DNA of 36,614 bases from a virus: positions 1-36,614 of IMG/VR virus record IMGVR_UViG_3300044961_000937. The stretch is one strand, 5' to 3'. Numbering within the stretch: the first letter of the stretch is position 1; every line of letters begins with the position of its first letter. This document shows positions 2,229-33,501 of this stretch, piece by piece. The position numbers and the translations under genes were made by a program. The notes beneath the pieces are model-generated. The model saw nothing but the letters and a program-made list of their open reading frames with translations. It was not told where the DNA came from and made no database searches.

Positions 2229-2468
2229 CTACCAACAATCCGAATGCATCTCGTCTAAAATTTCTTCTGCGATTGTATCCCACAAATCGGTAGGGAAATT
2301 ATCTCCATCAATCCAATCAATCTCGTCGATGTATGTTGTTCCGCATTCGACGTAAGTATTGTATTCTACGATGCTTGTTTTTGTTACAGTTACGAAGTCG
2401 TCTAATTCTTCGTTGTAAACTTCATCTTTCCAAGTGAATTCGTAGGTTGGTTTAAGCATTCTTCTCAT
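2229..2468 (-). CDS. Small acidic protein of the amidoligase cassette
   Basis: 79 aa and highly acidic (many Asp/Glu, five Trp/Tyr-rich turns), beginning MRRMLKPTYEF and ending HSDCW. No family is recognised. It is a credible gene because AAGGAG lies 9 nt before the ATG (reading the minus strand) and its whole leader, including promoter-like blocks, is a mirrored copy of the leader of the divergent amidoligase gene. This shared leader implies co-regulation and joint function. Candidate roles, all inference: a peptide substrate of the amidoligase, an inhibitor, or a DNA-mimic protein as acidic phage proteins often are. The C-terminal Asp-Cys-Trp end is notable if it is a ligation substrate. 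Confidence 0.7.
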   Translation of the reverse strand: MRRMLKPTYEFTWKDEVYNEELDDFVTVTKTSIVEYNTYVECGTTYIDEIDWIDGDNFPTDLWDTIAEEILDEMHSDCW

Positions 2469-2793
2469 TTTTTTTAACTCCTTGATTTTAAATAATGTTG
2501 TTTAATTCTATGTCTAATGTAACATAAGAATTTAACTTACGCAAGTTATATTTTCAATAAATCGAATAAAATCAACAATTTATTCGATTTTTTTTGTTTT
2601 TTTTTTTGATGAATTTCTGAGCGAATTCGCTTGTCAATTACTGTGCCGCAATAAGTAAAAAGTAATAATAAAAAAGTTTAAATAAATCTGCTAAATTATT
2701 GAATTTAATGCAGATATAACTTGCGTGTGAAAAATATTAATTGCACATTAGACATAGAAAATGTTAAACAATTGATATTAAAGGAATTAAACA
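2469..2793. promoter_or_regulatory. Divergent control region with duplicated, mirror-image promoter-leaders
   Basis: Reading away from the centre, both arms contain the same 13-mer ATATAACTTGCGT (2539-2551 on minus, 2714-2726 on plus), then exactly 18 unrelated bases, then the same 15-mer ACATTAGACATAGAA (2506-2520 minus, 2745-2759 plus). Next come a shared TTAAACAA and an SD-like AAGGAG/AAAGGA before each ATG. TTGCGT could act as a -35 box, with the -10 near the 15-mer. The left copy of the 13-mer also lies in a palindrome, AACTT-ACGC-AAGTT. Equal spacing in two otherwise diverged sequences points to a functional promoter or operator pair. No gene is seen in this stretch. Confidence 0.75.
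2559..2595. other. Perfect 12-bp AT-rich palindrome with T-tract
   Basis: AAATCGAATAAA (2559-2570) and TTTATTCGATTT (2579-2590) form a perfect 12-bp stem with an 8-nt loop, followed by a long T-rich tract. It has the shape of an intrinsic terminator reading rightward, but no plus-strand gene ends here. It lies in the middle of the divergent control region, so an operator or an insulator between the two promoters is as likely. Confidence 0.6.
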
Positions 2794-3771
2794 ATGACAC
2801 AACAAGAAATTTTAAACAGCAATCAAACCAAAACTTGGAAAATTCAGAGACTTTTGGAAATGGGACTTTCGAGACGGGAAGTTGCAGAGTTGGTTGGCAC
2901 AAACTACGGTTTTGTGCAAAATGTTTATGCGAGTCTTTTTCCTGACAGAATCAGAACCAGAGCAAGACAAGCGGTTCGAGAAGCGATTGAAAGGGGATTT
3001 CGGCTTGAGAGTTTTACATTCAATCACAAATTTGGTGTTGAGATTGAAATGTACGGAGTTGACAGAGAAGAATTAAGAACCGAATTGCGAAATGCAGGGA
3101 TTACGGTTGACATTGGAATGAGAAGAGAATCGAATGAAGGATATTGGAAAGTGACATCGGACGGTTCGATAACCGGCGAGAATGCTTTGGAATTGGTAAG
3201 TCCGATTTTGGAAGGACCGCAAGGAATTGCAACTTTGAAAACGGTAATGTTGATTGTGAGAGGATTGGAAGCGAAGGTCAACAGAACTTGCGGATTGCAC
3301 ATTCATTTTGATGCATCGAGTTTTAGCTGGGATGCATGGAAAAACCTTTTTATCAATTATGCAATGATTGAAAACCACATTGATTCCTTTATGCCGGCAT
3401 CAAGAAGAGCCAACAACAACACTTACTGCTACTCGATGCGGGTTTCAAATTTTAAGCAAAAAGTAATGGAAACAAGACAATTGCGGACCATGATAAACAG
3501 CGTGAAATCATTGCACCAAAGAATCACCGGAAACAGCAGATATTACAAAATCAATGCAAGTGCTTTTTGGAGACACGGTTCGGTAGAATTCAGACAGCAT
3601 GGCGGGACGGTTTCATTCAACAAGGTTAACAATTGGATTAAATTTTTAGCAAGATTGATTGAATTTTCAAAACACGGACAATTCCAAACAGGAGGTGAAA
3701 ATGAATTTAACAATTTTTTAGATGAACAAACAATTGCTTACATTCGCAACAGAAAGAGTGAATTAGCATAA
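2794..3771 (+). CDS. Amidoligase_2 family enzyme with N-terminal helix-turn-helix
   Basis: 325 aa. Residues 24-45 (SRREVAELVGTNYGFVQNV) look like a helix-turn-helix. Residues 79-320 match the amidoligase family (COOH-NH2 ligase with a glutamine synthetase-like/GCS fold). FGVEIEM at 80-86 supplies the paired Glu of the metal/ATP site; the WKVTSDGSI block follows at 118-126, ELVSPIL at 133-139, CGLHIHFD at 166-173 and EFRQHGGT at 265-272. The family joins a carboxylate to an amine using ATP and is proposed to make peptide tags or modify proteins; phage members are known but their substrates are not. The start has AAAGGA 8 nt upstream. It is probably co-transcribed with the 75-aa gene downstream and co-regulated with the divergent acidic gene. 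The fused HTH suggests DNA binding or autoregulation. Confidence 0.85.
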   Translation: MTQQEILNSNQTKTWKIQRLLEMGLSRREVAELVGTNYGFVQNVYASLFPDRIRTRARQAVREAIERGFRLESFTFNHKFGVEIEMYGVDREELRTELRNAGITVDIGMRRESNEGYWKVTSDGSITGENALELVSPILEGPQGIATLKTVMLIVRGLEAKVNRTCGLHIHFDASSFSWDAWKNLFINYAMIENHIDSFMPASRRANNNTYCYSMRVSNFKQKVMETRQLRTMINSVKSLHQRITGNSRYYKINASAFWRHGSVEFRQHGGTVSFNKVNNWIKFLARLIEFSKHGQFQTGGENEFNNFLDEQTIAYIRNRKSELA

Positions 3772-3789
3772 TTATTATTAGGAGGATTT

Positions 3790-4017
3790 ATGAAATACAA
3801 ATTAAACACAGGCGAGATTGTCGACGCAAAGAATGCTGACGAGTTGGTAGCCATTTTGAACAACACTTCTTTTTTCGGAAGTCGAGATACAATCAAAGAG
3901 TTTATGGTGGATACAGCCGCAAGGGTGTCAACCGATTTAGATGTGACAATAAACACAAACACAACAGGAGCGTTTGTGGCTGATTTGATAAAGCACGGTT
4001 ACATCGAATTGATTTAA
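3790..4017 (+). CDS. Small protein downstream of amidoligase, function unknown
   Basis: 75 aa, starting after a perfect AGGAGG (ATG 4 nt later), 18 nt after the amidoligase stop. The sequence begins MKYKLNTGEIVDAKNADEL and ends GYIELI. A short beta-rich start (KLNTGEIVDA) and a helix-rich middle are visible, but no family is recognised. The strong SD suggests abundant expression. Because it follows the amidoligase directly, it is a reasonable candidate for the substrate or partner protein. It ends only 2 bp from the stop of the convergent minus-strand packaging/portal operon, with no terminator visible between them. Confidence 0.65.
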   Translation: MKYKLNTGEIVDAKNADELVAILNNTSFFGSRDTIKEFMVDTAARVSTDLDVTINTNTTGAFVADLIKHGYIELI

Positions 4018-5137: not shown

Positions 5138-6705
5138 TATTCGCTCTCCGATTTGTGGTATCCATATGCTTCCATTGTTGTTATCATGCGATAGATGAAG
5201 TCTTTTTTGTCTTCGAGCGGCAAGTCGTCGTAAATGTCGAATAATTTGTCGTTCATCTCTTCGAGCGATTCTGCGTTTTCGACAAATTCTGCAATCGCGT
5301 CAATTGTTGCGTCTTTGAGAGATTTGAATTCTGCTGATTTCAAAAGTTCATCCGCAAATTCATCTTGTAATTCGGGCTCGTTGTTGTCTTGAGCTAAAAT
5401 TTTCAATGCGTGAAAACCTTGTTTTTTCGGCTTAACTTTTGCTTCATCTAAAGTATCTTCCGGCTCAGTTGTTTCGGGAGTTGTTTCTTTCGGCTCACTT
5501 TCGATACTTTGTTTGAGGGTAAAGTATTTTGCATCAATGTTGAACTGTTCAGAAATATAATCTTCGTTAACGCTTACTCCGCAATTTTTGAGTGTTTGCA
5601 ACAAATTAGCTTTTGATTGATATTTTTCAATGTCGTCAAGTTCGAAAAATCGTATTTGACAATGCTTGTTGCCGCTAAAATTCAATTCATGCTGCCATTT
5701 GAGGAGCTTGTTGATGTAGTTAACGATGAATTTTGTGTATGCTTCGACGCGGTCTGTTTTGGTCGACAATGCCATATCTTCGCTCCCAAGCTTTCCGGGA
5801 GTTGATGAAGCACTTCCTTCATGTCCGAGAATGAGGATTGAGATTTGTTTATCGCAGAATATAATGAGTTGATTATAAATATCGCTACTGCCTGATGAAC
5901 CTGCGGGGAATAGGTTTGACGTTACTCCTTCAGGGAGTACAATGACCTTGTTTTGTACCATGTCTTCGAGTAATTCTCCGAGCTCTATTGCGTATTCATC
6001 AATGGACTTTTTCGCCAATGCGGCGGCTTGCTGGCTGTAAGTTGCTGACACTCCGGGAGAGCCGAAGGTTTCGGTAAAGACAGCCCAAAAATCCGCTACG
6101 TTATTTTTGATAAATACTTTTTTGTAGCAGTTGACAAACAGACCGTTCCCGTATGGATTTTTCCACGTCGGTTCATAAGTCGGTGCAAGTATTCTGTATG
6201 GTTGAATCAGCTCTCCGGTTGCTCGTTTAGTATCTGTCAAAACTCTCAAATTTCGCTCTACGTCATAGACAAAAGCATCGTGTGGAAGTTCGATAATTTC
6301 GTCAATTGTCATATACTTACCACGTTTCCAAAGCAAATTGAGGTACTGACTACCATAAAAGATAGCCCAGAGGATTTGCCGAATGAGATTGTTTGACATG
6401 AGTTGCTCGATAGTTTGTTGAGCAAGAGCAACCTCAGCCGCTGAAGCTCCATTTTTTATGATTTCATATTCAAGACTTGTGATTGCCTCAAATATCGAGT
6501 TCACACACCCGCGAACGTGCGGGTCTGCGAATGTTTCTTGAAATAGATTATAGCTTCCCAATTGCCCGATGAGTTTAGTAGGATTCGGCAAAATGTCGTA
6601 ATACCTGCGATAACTGTCGTTGACGGTTTCGAGTTTTTCCGTCAGGTCTGACTTTTTGAGCTTTGCCGCTGAAGCCATAAATGCTTTTTGAATAATATTT
6701 TCCAT
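5137..6705 (-). CDS. Portal protein, DUF935 / Mu gp29-like
   Basis: 522 aa. It matches the DUF935 portal family: an N-terminal LPNPTKLIGQLGSYNLFQE segment, ADPHVRGCVNSIF (the usual D.hv.a.l..R helix), WAIFYGSQYLNLLWKRG, and a central SDIYNQLIIFCDKQISILILGH-x-GSAS block that is hallmark sequence of the family (disk/stem region). The portal is the dodecameric ring at one capsid vertex through which DNA enters and to which the tail attaches. Residues from about 400 on are acidic and low-complexity (EPKETTPETTEPED), probably a flexible linker before a helical end. It lies between TerL (8 bp upstream) and the F-like gene (1-bp overlap). Confidence 0.9.
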   Translation of the reverse strand: MENIIQKAFMASAAKLKKSDLTEKLETVNDSYRRYYDILPNPTKLIGQLGSYNLFQETFADPHVRGCVNSIFEAITSLEYEIIKNGASAAEVALAQQTIEQLMSNNLIRQILWAIFYGSQYLNLLWKRGKYMTIDEIIELPHDAFVYDVERNLRVLTDTKRATGELIQPYRILAPTYEPTWKNPYGNGLFVNCYKKVFIKNNVADFWAVFTETFGSPGVSATYSQQAAALAKKSIDEYAIELGELLEDMVQNKVIVLPEGVTSNLFPAGSSGSSDIYNQLIIFCDKQISILILGHEGSASSTPGKLGSEDMALSTKTDRVEAYTKFIVNYINKLLKWQHELNFSGNKHCQIRFFELDDIEKYQSKANLLQTLKNCGVSVNEDYISEQFNIDAKYFTLKQSIESEPKETTPETTEPEDTLDEAKVKPKKQGFHALKILAQDNNEPELQDEFADELLKSAEFKSLKDATIDAIAEFVENAESLEEMNDKLFDIYDDLPLEDKKDFIYRMITTMEAYGYHKSESE

Positions 6706-7943: not shown

Positions 7944-8571
7944 CTATGCTTTCTACTCCCGTCAAGAGATTTGACATCGAGCCTTTTACTTGAATGTTGA
8001 TGCTCGGTTTGATGACCTCTCCACCTGAAGTGTGGTCGAGTCCGAGCTTTTTGATGTCAGTCGGCTCACCTCTTGTTTTTCTTTCCAAATCGGCAACCTG
8101 CACGAGTGCTTGTGCTGATTTATAAGTAAGTTCAAGCAATTTTACTGACGGCAGATTTCTGATGTCGTTTGTATCGCCTGCGTGAATTTTCTTGAGCAAC
8201 TCGATAACCGGAAAATATGCCGCAAATAGAGTATTTTTGGCATAATCAGCGTGTCGAGATGCCATATCACGGACTGCTTTTTCCGTTTCTTCAAGATGAA
8301 TTCTGTCGAGATGTCGGTGATATGCAGAAATTCGTTCAGACCATCTCCATTTCATTGACATGTTACCCACATTTTTCCTGCCTTGGTACAATCGTTCCGG
8401 CGGATACATCTGCTTTGCAACATTCATATGGCTGCGAAAAATTCCCATATCCCGATACATTTTGAACATTTCAAATGCTTTGACCGGCTCTTTGGGTTGT
8501 CGTTCCCATTCGGGATAAACAATTTCCTGTCTAGCCCAATTGTTCTTGTGTTTCGGTTTTTCTAAGTTCAT
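7936..8571 (-). CDS. terS: Terminase small subunit (TerS)
   Basis: 211 aa. Assignment rests on position directly upstream of TerL and on its make-up: an N-terminal DNA-binding-like helical region (WERQPKEPVKAFEMFKMYRDMG, then RSHMNVAKQMYPPERLY and WSERISAYHRHLDR), a helical middle suited to oligomerisation, and a C-terminal tail rich in Ser/Lys. TerS recognises the packaging site on phage DNA and delivers it to TerL. The first 41 bp lie within the end of the methyltransferase gene, and the SD is weak, so translation is probably coupled. Confidence 0.75.
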   Translation of the reverse strand: MNLEKPKHKNNWARQEIVYPEWERQPKEPVKAFEMFKMYRDMGIFRSHMNVAKQMYPPERLYQGRKNVGNMSMKWRWSERISAYHRHLDRIHLEETEKAVRDMASRHADYAKNTLFAAYFPVIELLKKIHAGDTNDIRNLPSVKLLELTYKSAQALVQVADLERKTRGEPTDIKKLGLDHTSGGEVIKPSINIQVKGSMSNLLTGVESIDD

Positions 8572-9982
8572 TTCTAAACTCTTCGTTTGTGATTAAAACT
8601 CCATTCTTTTTGATTTCGCATGGTAAGTTATGCTCTTCGCAATATGTGATATAGCGATTCACTATTCCATCCACAAATGCCGGAGAGAGTTCCATTGCAT
8701 AGCATTTGCGTTTCAATTGCTCGGCGGCGATTAGTGTTGAGCCTGAGCCACCAAATAATTCAAGAACGATTTCACCATCTTGCGAGCTGTTGTGAATTGC
8801 TCTTGCCGGCAGAGCTATCGGCTTTTGTGTCGGATGAATATACTTGCGATTATCTTCTCTGTTATACTCCCAAACATTACTTTCATTGTTTGGACCGAAC
8901 CACCGAGCGCCTTCTCCGTTACCGTTGACTGCACCTTTTCCGGCAAAGAAACAAGGTTCGTACTTGCGTTTGAATCGCACCCAACTGAGCGGTGCCACTT
9001 GTTTTACCCATACAATCGGAACTTTATCGTACGGAATGTCGAGTTCTTCAAAAATCTGCAGGAAAGTTCGAACGTAAGACGTAGCGTGCCAGATGTAGTA
9101 GTGAGCATGCTCAATCATATTGTTTTTTGCATTTAATAAGAATTTGCGAACAAAATCTTCGTATTCTTCATCTGCCATTGAGTCATCCCACTCGGTGCAA
9201 TATACATCAGTCCAATCTTTGCCTGTTTTTGAGCGTTTTTTATTGAGTTTTGCATATTCGACATTGTAGGGAGGGTCTGTATGAAGCATATGTGCTTTTT
9301 TTCCGTTCATTAAAACTGCAACATCATCAGCCGAAGTTGAGTCTCCGCATAAGAGGCGATGCTCGTTTAGTTCGTAAAGGTCTCCGGGTTTTGAGACGGG
9401 ATTTTTCGGTAGCGGTTCATCGTAAGTATCTTCTTGTACTTCATTGAGAGGAATTTCTTCAATATCGAATTTCAGCATTTCTTCTACTTGTTTTGAATCG
9501 AACGGTAAAGTGGTCTCAAGCTCCCCCATGTCATAACTTAAGCTCAAATCTTTGATTAATGCAGCGAGTTTATCCGGGTCGTGACCGAATCGTGTCTCGT
9601 TGGTTTCAATAGCAATTCTTTGAGCTTCGGCAAGTGTGATTTTACCGTGGTCATATGCAACGATGAATTTACGACCGATTTTGTCATTGCTGTCGAGGCG
9701 ATGATTACCGTTAACAACTTCATAGTAGCCGGTATCAAGCAGACGTACTTGTATATTTTCCACTTGCCCGATGCGTTTAATGTTGTTTGTGAGTTTTTCG
9801 TGAGTGAAGTCACTATCGTTTTTGTAGTTCCACGAAGCCTTTACCAATAGCTCTCTCGGAAAGATTTTATATCTGAGATAATTATTAATCTCGTAGTCGG
9901 GAATATTCATTTGAGCAAGCTGTTGCTCGTTGAAAAAAGGTACAATCTGCGTTTGCAGGGTTGATACATTAAGAGCTTCCAT
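8531..9982 (-). CDS. ParB/Srx-domain DNA methyltransferase fusion
   Basis: 483 aa from the ATG at 9982, chosen because AAGGA precedes it by 11 nt; a TTG at 10018 would add 12 residues. Residues about 60-130 form a ParB N-terminal-like domain (VENIQVRLLDTGYYEVVNGNHRL; NGNHR replaces the usual GxHR). Residues about 195-450 form an adenine/cytosine-N methyltransferase with motif IV DPPY (236-239) before motif I FGGSGST (410-416) and HPTQKP (383-388), i.e. beta-class order. This fusion is frequent in phages beside terminases. It could protect phage DNA from restriction or mark the packaging site; its target sequence cannot be read. It is the first gene of the minus-strand packaging operon. Confidence 0.92.
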   Translation of the reverse strand: MEALNVSTLQTQIVPFFNEQQLAQMNIPDYEINNYLRYKIFPRELLVKASWNYKNDSDFTHEKLTNNIKRIGQVENIQVRLLDTGYYEVVNGNHRLDSNDKIGRKFIVAYDHGKITLAEAQRIAIETNETRFGHDPDKLAALIKDLSLSYDMGELETTLPFDSKQVEEMLKFDIEEIPLNEVQEDTYDEPLPKNPVSKPGDLYELNEHRLLCGDSTSADDVAVLMNGKKAHMLHTDPPYNVEYAKLNKKRSKTGKDWTDVYCTEWDDSMADEEYEDFVRKFLLNAKNNMIEHAHYYIWHATSYVRTFLQIFEELDIPYDKVPIVWVKQVAPLSWVRFKRKYEPCFFAGKGAVNGNGEGARWFGPNNESNVWEYNREDNRKYIHPTQKPIALPARAIHNSSQDGEIVLELFGGSGSTLIAAEQLKRKCYAMELSPAFVDGIVNRYITYCEEHNLPCEIKKNGVLITNEEFRNELRKTETQEQLG

Positions 9983-10018
9983 AGATTTATTAATCCTTAC
10001 AGGTGATACATAATACAA

Positions 10019-32907: not shown

Positions 32908-33090
32908 TGTAAAACTTAAAAATGATGCGTTTAATATGAATTGAAAATGAAAAACAAATTAATTCTTTCAAAATTGAAAAAAAAAATTTCAAAAATAAAA
33001 AAAAAATTTGCATATGTGAAATTTATGTATTATTTTTACATCAGAACGATTGACAATTTAATTTAAAACATTTTTTATAGGAGATTTGAG
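32908..33090. promoter_or_regulatory. AT-rich intergenic region between int and the early operon
   Basis: 183 bp of very AT-rich sequence with A- and T-tracts between divergent int and the first early gene. It must hold the promoters of both. A TTGACA at 33050-33055 is visible, but no well-spaced -10 box follows, so I do not call a promoter. No ORF is supported here. Confidence 0.5.
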
Positions 33091-33501
33091 ATGAATTTTG
33101 TGGTAAGATACAGCGAGCATATAAACGAAGATTTGGCAAGGAATTGGTCTTCCTTTAATTTCGGCGAAGAAGGGCTAAATTGCACAGCTGAAGAGTTGCA
33201 GAGTGAAATTAATAGTTGTTTAAACGAAGAGCGTCCGCTTTATATTAGCGGCATGGAGCTTTGGGGTGATGAATTACGTAGTGCAACAATAAAAGAGTTG
33301 TACAGTAACTACTGGGTGCTGGTTGACATGCGTCAGCGCGGGCTGTCTTGCAATTTGCTAAACGCAGATACAGTTGAAGAAGCAATTGAAATTGTAAATG
33401 ACCCTGAATTTGCGATTGACTTTGGCTCGGAGCTGATGGTAAATTGTTCCGCCGCGAAGATTGTGTTTAGTAAAAACAACGTGCATGTACTTTGCGTTTA
33501 A
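33091..33501 (+). CDS. Unknown protein, first gene of the right early operon
   Basis: 136 aa, AGGAG 7 nt before the ATG. An acidic protein with Trp/Tyr-rich helical segments (MELWGDELRSATIKELYSNYWVLVDMRQRG) and four Cys. No family recognised. It begins the plus-strand early transcript 205 bp from the integrase start, and its stop codon overlaps the first base of the tRNA-like element. Confidence 0.7.
   Translation: MNFVVRYSEHINEDLARNWSSFNFGEEGLNCTAEELQSEINSCLNEERPLYISGMELWGDELRSATIKELYSNYWVLVDMRQRGLSCNLLNADTVEEAIEIVNDPEFAIDFGSELMVNCSAAKIVFSKNNVHVLCV

Follow-up and report, generated by a model that had tools for sequence, protein, structure and literature searches.

A phage amidoligase gene and its small neighbours

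What do phage amidoligases act on, and do the small genes beside one of them belong to the same system? Amidoligases are common in phages, and a demonstrated substrate was not found in the literature within reach; Iyer et al. 2009 is reportedly the main source on these enzymes. The window, that is, the whole stretch of DNA analysed here, is a 36.6-kb virus record. Since it encodes a Mu-type portal, a terminase, a ClpP-like head protease, and a tyrosine integrase, and further an SNF2-type helicase and a PAPS-reductase/DUF3440 protein, it is classified from its predicted gene content as a temperate tailed phage, either whole or fragmentary. The following features of the window are discussed.

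2229..2468, minus strand: 79-aa acidic protein, divergently transcribed, with AAGGAG upstream; shares the promoter type
2506..2550, minus strand: inverted copy of the promoter-like element before the 79-aa gene; score 21.7, the best in the window
2715..2759, plus strand: promoter-like element of the amidoligase operon (TATAACTTGCGTGTG...ACATTAGACATAGAA); score 15.1; the window's copy among the matrix regions
2794..3771, plus strand: HTH-fused amidoligase, 325 aa; HTH at about residues 1-50, amidoligase domain at residues 78-288
3780..3785, plus strand: ribosome-binding site AGGAGG, 4 nt ahead of the ATG of the 75-aa gene, read directly
3790..4017, plus strand: small partner protein, 75 aa, unnamed family; homologues lie directly 3′ of amidoligases
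33002..33043, plus strand: third copy of the promoter type, upstream of the ORF at 33091-33501; score 19.9

From left to right, the cassette consists of the leftward 79-aa ORF, the inverted duplicated promoter region, the HTH-amidoligase ORF, and the 75-aa ORF. In summary, I found that the last two are a true two-gene module, which is conserved widely and whose small protein belongs to an uncurated family; the mechanism proposed below is offered as a hypothesis. The cassette lies where the rightward early genes end, and the 75-aa ORF stops just before the leftward neck/MuF/portal/terminase block. The initial annotation had placed it between the early genes and an inverted packaging block, and the same order was indeed found in five related phage loci (L018, L019, L024, L027, and L068), in which portal and/or MuF genes point back toward the cassette. 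Since this boundary is identical in the five loci, the cassette is a stable part of the window's phage type. In Porphyromonas phages, the cassette was found in the head-tail regions, and in two other loci (L013 and L042) it lies upstream of conjugation-type genes (TraG P-loop and ParA-like). The packaging block of the window also contains an N6/N4 DNA methylase gene (495-aa ORF; 8531-10018, minus strand), which adjoins a 211-aa ORF preceding the terminase.

The HTH-fused amidoligase

The 325-aa ORF matches the Pfam family Amidoligase_2 (PF12224) with an E value of 1.3e-37 and 130.4 bits against a curated cut-off of 22, spanning profile positions 3-244 of 245, and it also matches the PHROG 2443 amidoligase (E=2e-47). 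The residues of the GS-type motifs, ExE (E83/E85), HxH (H169/H171), and ExR (E265/R267), are invariant in 46 homologues. By tblastn, the window amidoligase was matched in 99 phage records, the best being those of Porphyromonas phages (43% identity), where the homologues carry the annotation 'amidoligase enzyme'. The conserved N-terminal region is HTH-like, with helices predicted by AF2 at residues 3-8, 13-22, 27-34, and 38-48, and has a weak Pfam match (HTH_58, E=0.009, below the cut-off). Thus, the Pfam score, the invariant motifs, and the HTH-like region agree with the first description of this ORF as an amidoligase with intact family motifs fused to an HTH. The predicted enzyme is a clear member of the phage Amidoligase_2 proteins (PF12224, PHROG 2443), but differs from them in its HTH fusion and in the uncurated, dedicated small protein encoded directly downstream.

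The structural model of the ligase has a GS fold, with a Z score of 13.0 to glutamine synthetase (3.5 A over 208 residues) and of 11.4 to YbdK, and gamma-glutamylmethylamide synthetase (GmaS) was also among the matches. Although YbdK/GCS2 and gamma-glutamylmethylamide synthetase are among the nearest solved folds, the identity of the ligase domain to these folds is only 11-17%, and the substrates may differ. The fold class of the ligase, like that of the partner described next, is a predicted one.

The 75-aa protein

The near-perfect SD first attributed to the 75-aa gene is the AGGAGG at 3780-3785. No match to the family of this protein was found among the Pfam, PHROG, or NCBIfam models. An alignment of eight sequences, with 15 invariant positions, shows that this protein and its homologues are one family. 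Using 77 homologues, AF2 predicted a compact globular fold (pLDDT 94.8, pTM 0.82) with the order beta-beta-alpha-alpha-alpha-beta. Sequence and fold searches for solved relatives gave nothing convincing (best Foldseek E value 1.1, best VIA Z score 2.3), and the model matches unnamed viral models at TM 0.93. In the 77 sequences, the conserved positions are V20, M39, R45, F62, D65, and L66, namely core positions plus R45 and D65, the latter being D in 80% and E in 9%. The tails after L66 are 7-47 residues long and vary in both length and sequence. Neither an invariant Lys, Glu, Gln, Cys, or Ser nor a conserved C-terminal residue was found in this alignment.

Since it is encoded directly after a predicted bond-forming enzyme and belongs to an undescribed family, the 75-aa protein stands first among the candidates for the partner or substrate that the enzyme is missing. 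What is new here is the tight coupling of a large amidoligase branch to a small, uncurated protein with a confidently predicted fold, and the question of what phage amidoligases act on becomes directly testable by co-expression.

Does the small protein resemble a known tag, carrier, or precursor? The locus is reminiscent of pupylation (Pup, PafA) in that a GS-fold carboxylate-amine ligase has a small protein gene nearby. In contrast to Pup, the small protein here is predicted to be globular, and the ligase is an Amidoligase_2 protein to which the Pup ligase model gave no match. A Pup-like tail was rejected because the C-termini are variable and the GG[E/Q] ending is absent from the 77 sequences. 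An amino-group carrier of the LysW type was also rejected, the conserved C-terminal Glu motif being absent in the same sequences. The possibility of a RiPP precursor was rejected, since there is no conserved leader with a variable short core and conserved positions occur throughout the domain, as far as about residue 72.

Linkage of the amidoligase and the small gene

Is the gene pair common outside the window? In Porphyromonas phages and gut contigs, the 75-aa protein had weak matches (E values from 7e-6 to 0.3), which lay directly behind the amidoligases matched there. The amidoligase alignment was then scanned against 84,980 genomes and 2.9 million viral contigs, yielding 129 loci, most of which have the small gene directly downstream. 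With redundancy included, homologues of the small gene lie directly 3′ of amidoligases in more than 130 loci, and the commonest geometry is a 4-nt ATGA-type overlap of the two genes (48/133 loci, likewise redundant). Non-HTH relatives were added by a further scan, and duplicates were removed before the following counts. The small gene accompanies 86 of the 90 non-redundant HTH-amidoligases, usually with an overlap of a few bases. Of the four exceptions, one (L027) has the small gene further downstream, two (L061 and L063) are short open frames, and the fourth (L183) has decayed. The non-HTH amidoligases have the small gene less uniformly (49/82, non-redundant), and six of these 49 pairs form a divergent subgroup recognised by eye.

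It was also asked whether the small gene occurs mostly without an amidoligase. It does not: when the small protein alone was used as the query of a reverse viral scan, an amidoligase lay immediately upstream in 26 of 27 loci, a count from a closer small-protein set that favours Bacteroidales relatives. The 27th locus is at a contig end, with only about 250 bases before the small gene. In genome draws that include centre genomes picked because they hold the pair, three of 295 evenly drawn Bacteroidales species have the small family, adjoining an amidoligase in 3/3, and 291 evenly drawn Cytophagales genomes include 15 with the small gene, 15 with the ligase, and 13 with both (Fisher p about 8e-19). 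One of these 13 (G557) has only decayed pieces of both genes, about 4.6 kb apart. The Cytophagales exceptions having the small gene without an amidoligase are L165 and the weak L167. Furthermore, four cyanobacterial genomes (L297, L298, L299, and L300) have a homologue of the small protein, and no amidoligase match was found in them; in one of the four, the homologue (L298, 1501-1743) is read as an ORF that stands alone and has a ribosome site of its own. Because of L165, L167, and the four cyanobacterial genomes, the use of the small fold extends beyond the amidoligase partnership. The small partner is in turn dispensable for some members of the enzyme family, since some amidoligases have a gamma-glutamyl cyclotransferase (GGCT) or a class II glutamine amidotransferase instead.

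The linkage of the amidoligase and the 75-aa protein is far beyond chance, and gene order, tight coupling, and co-occurrence are read directly from these loci. Many viruses and mobile elements carry the pair, their hosts being Bacteroidota and certain other bacteria. A read-through AF2 model, in which the TAA stop of the window was taken as Gly solely to fold both chains together, reproduced both folds (mean pLDDT 91.9, pTM 0.71) and informs on the folds rather than on an interface.

The 79-aa protein and the promoter-like element

The cassette had been proposed as a unit of three genes, and the pair of the amidoligase and the 75-aa protein stood, while the 79-aa protein is not a third conserved member. 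No phage homologue of the 79-aa protein above noise was found, and a pattern scan returned the identical contig only. The sole relative in the loci fetched is a divergent 87-aa acidic ORF (L068, 2088-2351, minus strand; 33% identity), which has the same position and promoter element. In L027 and L074, unrelated small ORFs lie behind further copies of the element. The trio as a conserved unit was rejected on the basis of this one relative; with a single homologue and no other match, the 79-aa protein is outside the conserved module, being a neighbour with a common promoter type.

The duplicated promoter that the amidoligase was first said to share with the 79-aa protein took the form of an inverted repeat, whose arms (2506-2607 and 2658-2759) are 71% complementary over 102 nt and contain identical 12-nt and 15-nt blocks. 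The consensus of this ACTTGCGTGT element is ungapped, roughly TATnACTTGCgygT-N13-AGTGTTAcCTTAG. Most HTH-amidoligase genes have it, at about -71 to -101, and 25 of the 86 upstream regions contain an exact match to the core ACTTGCG, as compared with 3% of random stretches. An iterated matrix accepts about 70 of the HTH-amidoligase upstream regions, the scores not being independent since the matrix was refined on these regions, many of which are related. When a single 12-nt block was searched with mismatches allowed, the result did not exceed chance; it was the matrix over 42 positions that resolved the element. Only three sites in the window score above 4, the next best elsewhere being 3.3. The top-scoring copy, that of the 79-aa gene, lies in the same intergenic region as a training sequence, but its strand was outside the training set.

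The spacing of the element fits the -33/-7 promoter of Bacteroidota, plus an extra conserved block. This block is a putative site for a regulator, perhaps the ligase through its HTH. The element also suggests expression with early or lysogeny genes. The early ORF at 33091-33501, which has the amidoligase promoter type, lies beside the integrase gene and encodes 136 aa of no known family. In five loci, L107, L108, L109, L112, and L113, the element recurs on the minus strand near 5205-5252, directly behind the small gene, and faces the operon, an arrangement as for an antisense transcript.

Gamma-glutamyl cyclotransferase in related operons

In the non-HTH branch, a three-gene run of amidoligase, small protein, and GGCT is common. 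A GGCT gene lies within 4 kb in 28 of the 49 non-HTH pairs and often overlaps the small gene, and a match to Pfam GGACT confirms the cyclotransferase in four loci. A close HTH relative from an Ignavibacteria genome (L019) likewise has a GGCT. Amidoligases lacking the small protein are accompanied by a GGCT in 18 non-redundant non-HTH cases and by a class II amidotransferase in seven; a class II amidotransferase together with the small protein was never seen in the loci counted. Searches of the window, whose record may be incomplete, with the GGCT and class II amidotransferase profiles gave no match. Gamma-glutamyl amide bonds would fit the GGCT pattern, and since the window has neither gene, such chemistry can be extended to it only by analogy with its relatives.

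In PMC5498523, phage cassettes of amidoligase and GGCT are proposed to be cell-wall modifiers, and a related chemistry is proposed for the peptidoglycan-modification cassettes of PSA-HP1 and phiEco32, which combine amidoligase, GGCT, and glutamine amidotransferase. The GGCT of those cassettes is present in the non-HTH relatives of the window enzyme, but has no match in the window, and the passage on amidoligase/GGCT cassettes does not mention the small protein. The present analysis adds to such cassettes the three-gene GGCT version and the conserved promoter-like element.

Proposed mechanism and alternatives

How might the two proteins work together? In the preferred reading, to which I give roughly an even chance, a predicted GS-fold ligase and its dedicated small partner form a non-covalent complex that likely makes a gamma-glutamyl amide and is expressed from its own promoter. 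One autonomous bicistron would thus produce both the carboxylate-amine ligase and the partner. In the complex, the small protein would position, restrict, or regulate the ligase, which would use ATP to join a carboxylate to an amine. The product would most likely be a gamma-glutamyl amide, because the non-HTH operons add a cyclotransferase able to cleave such bonds. The HTH probably gives the enzyme DNA binding, perhaps to its own promoter. As has been proposed in print for other phage amidoligase cassettes, the likeliest use would be to alter a cell-wall peptide or surface component of the host, as a prophage or early in infection.

Alternatively, the small protein may be a covalent substrate or carrier, to which the amidoligase attaches an amino acid or amine, or which it joins to a target; the GGCT of the relatives would then release the group. 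LysW carriers, the BtrI/BtrJ/BtrG steps of butirosin synthesis, and pupylation follow a parallel logic. The tight one-to-one coupling of ligase and small protein and the existence of ligase-small protein-cyclotransferase runs speak for it, but it is unlikely, though a serious contender, given that the small protein has no invariant Lys, Glu, Gln, Cys, or Ser, has variable tails, and is predicted to be globular unlike Pup, and that the ligase is also found without it. Since the small protein has a confident globular fold with conserved positions, and neither its tail nor any Lys is conserved, a non-covalent partner seems likelier than a covalent tag. Peptide tagging by the small protein is possible and is not favoured, because its C-terminal tail varies and Lys is not conserved, unlike in Pup or LysW; modification at one of its termini or at D65 is also possible. 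A fuller version, in which a virus-borne protein modification system has the GS-fold amidoligase charge or conjugate a dedicated globular small protein and the GGCT release it in the three-gene versions, appears somewhat more doubtful still. By the matches obtained here, such a carrier or tag system would be unrelated to LysW, Pup, or ubiquitin-like proteins. In PMC2588565 (Iyer et al. 2008), it was argued that protein conjugation is unlikely for a related family of carboxylate-amine ligases, as a small conserved ORF is absent nearby. Here, a small conserved ORF accompanies the amidoligase, which bears on that argument and favours the covalent reading; that family and the phage amidoligase are related and may or may not belong to the same subfamily.

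The small protein might instead inhibit an amidoligase harmful to the host or to rival phages, as in a toxin-antitoxin-like or regulatory pair serving addiction or superinfection exclusion. A compact bicistron that occurs on phages and conjugative elements and has a promoter-like element of its own, an HTH that could autoregulate, and the HicAB-like genes adjoining the pair in some P. gingivalis phages are consistent with such a role, but amidoligases without the small protein and standalone small proteins occur, and PADLOC gave no match at E<=0.1. I regard it as quite improbable. A counter-defence system, considered at the outset, was not borne out by the same PADLOC search, systems beyond that library being a possibility. 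Finally, could the small gene be an unrelated passenger that travels with the amidoligase by phage synteny? Phages close to the window do share synteny across the entire region, but the pair persists with different phage neighbours, on TraG/ParA-like elements, and in non-HTH phage clades, with a single gene order throughout. Mere synteny is already disfavoured and very improbable.

Variants of the module

Several loci depart from the simple pair. L090 (347-601, plus strand) and L197 (1673-1927, plus strand) have a second, divergent copy of the small protein upstream, giving the order small protein, amidoligase, small protein. In L031, L032, L099, L100, and L104, which are of Prevotella type where named, the small protein has an N-terminal extension of about 50 residues. 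In L182 (1486-2880, minus strand), where no downstream small protein was found, a 465-aa amidoligase has the HTH region in a tandem duplicate; this duplicated HTH has a better Pfam match than that of the window, yet it is sub-threshold or borderline.
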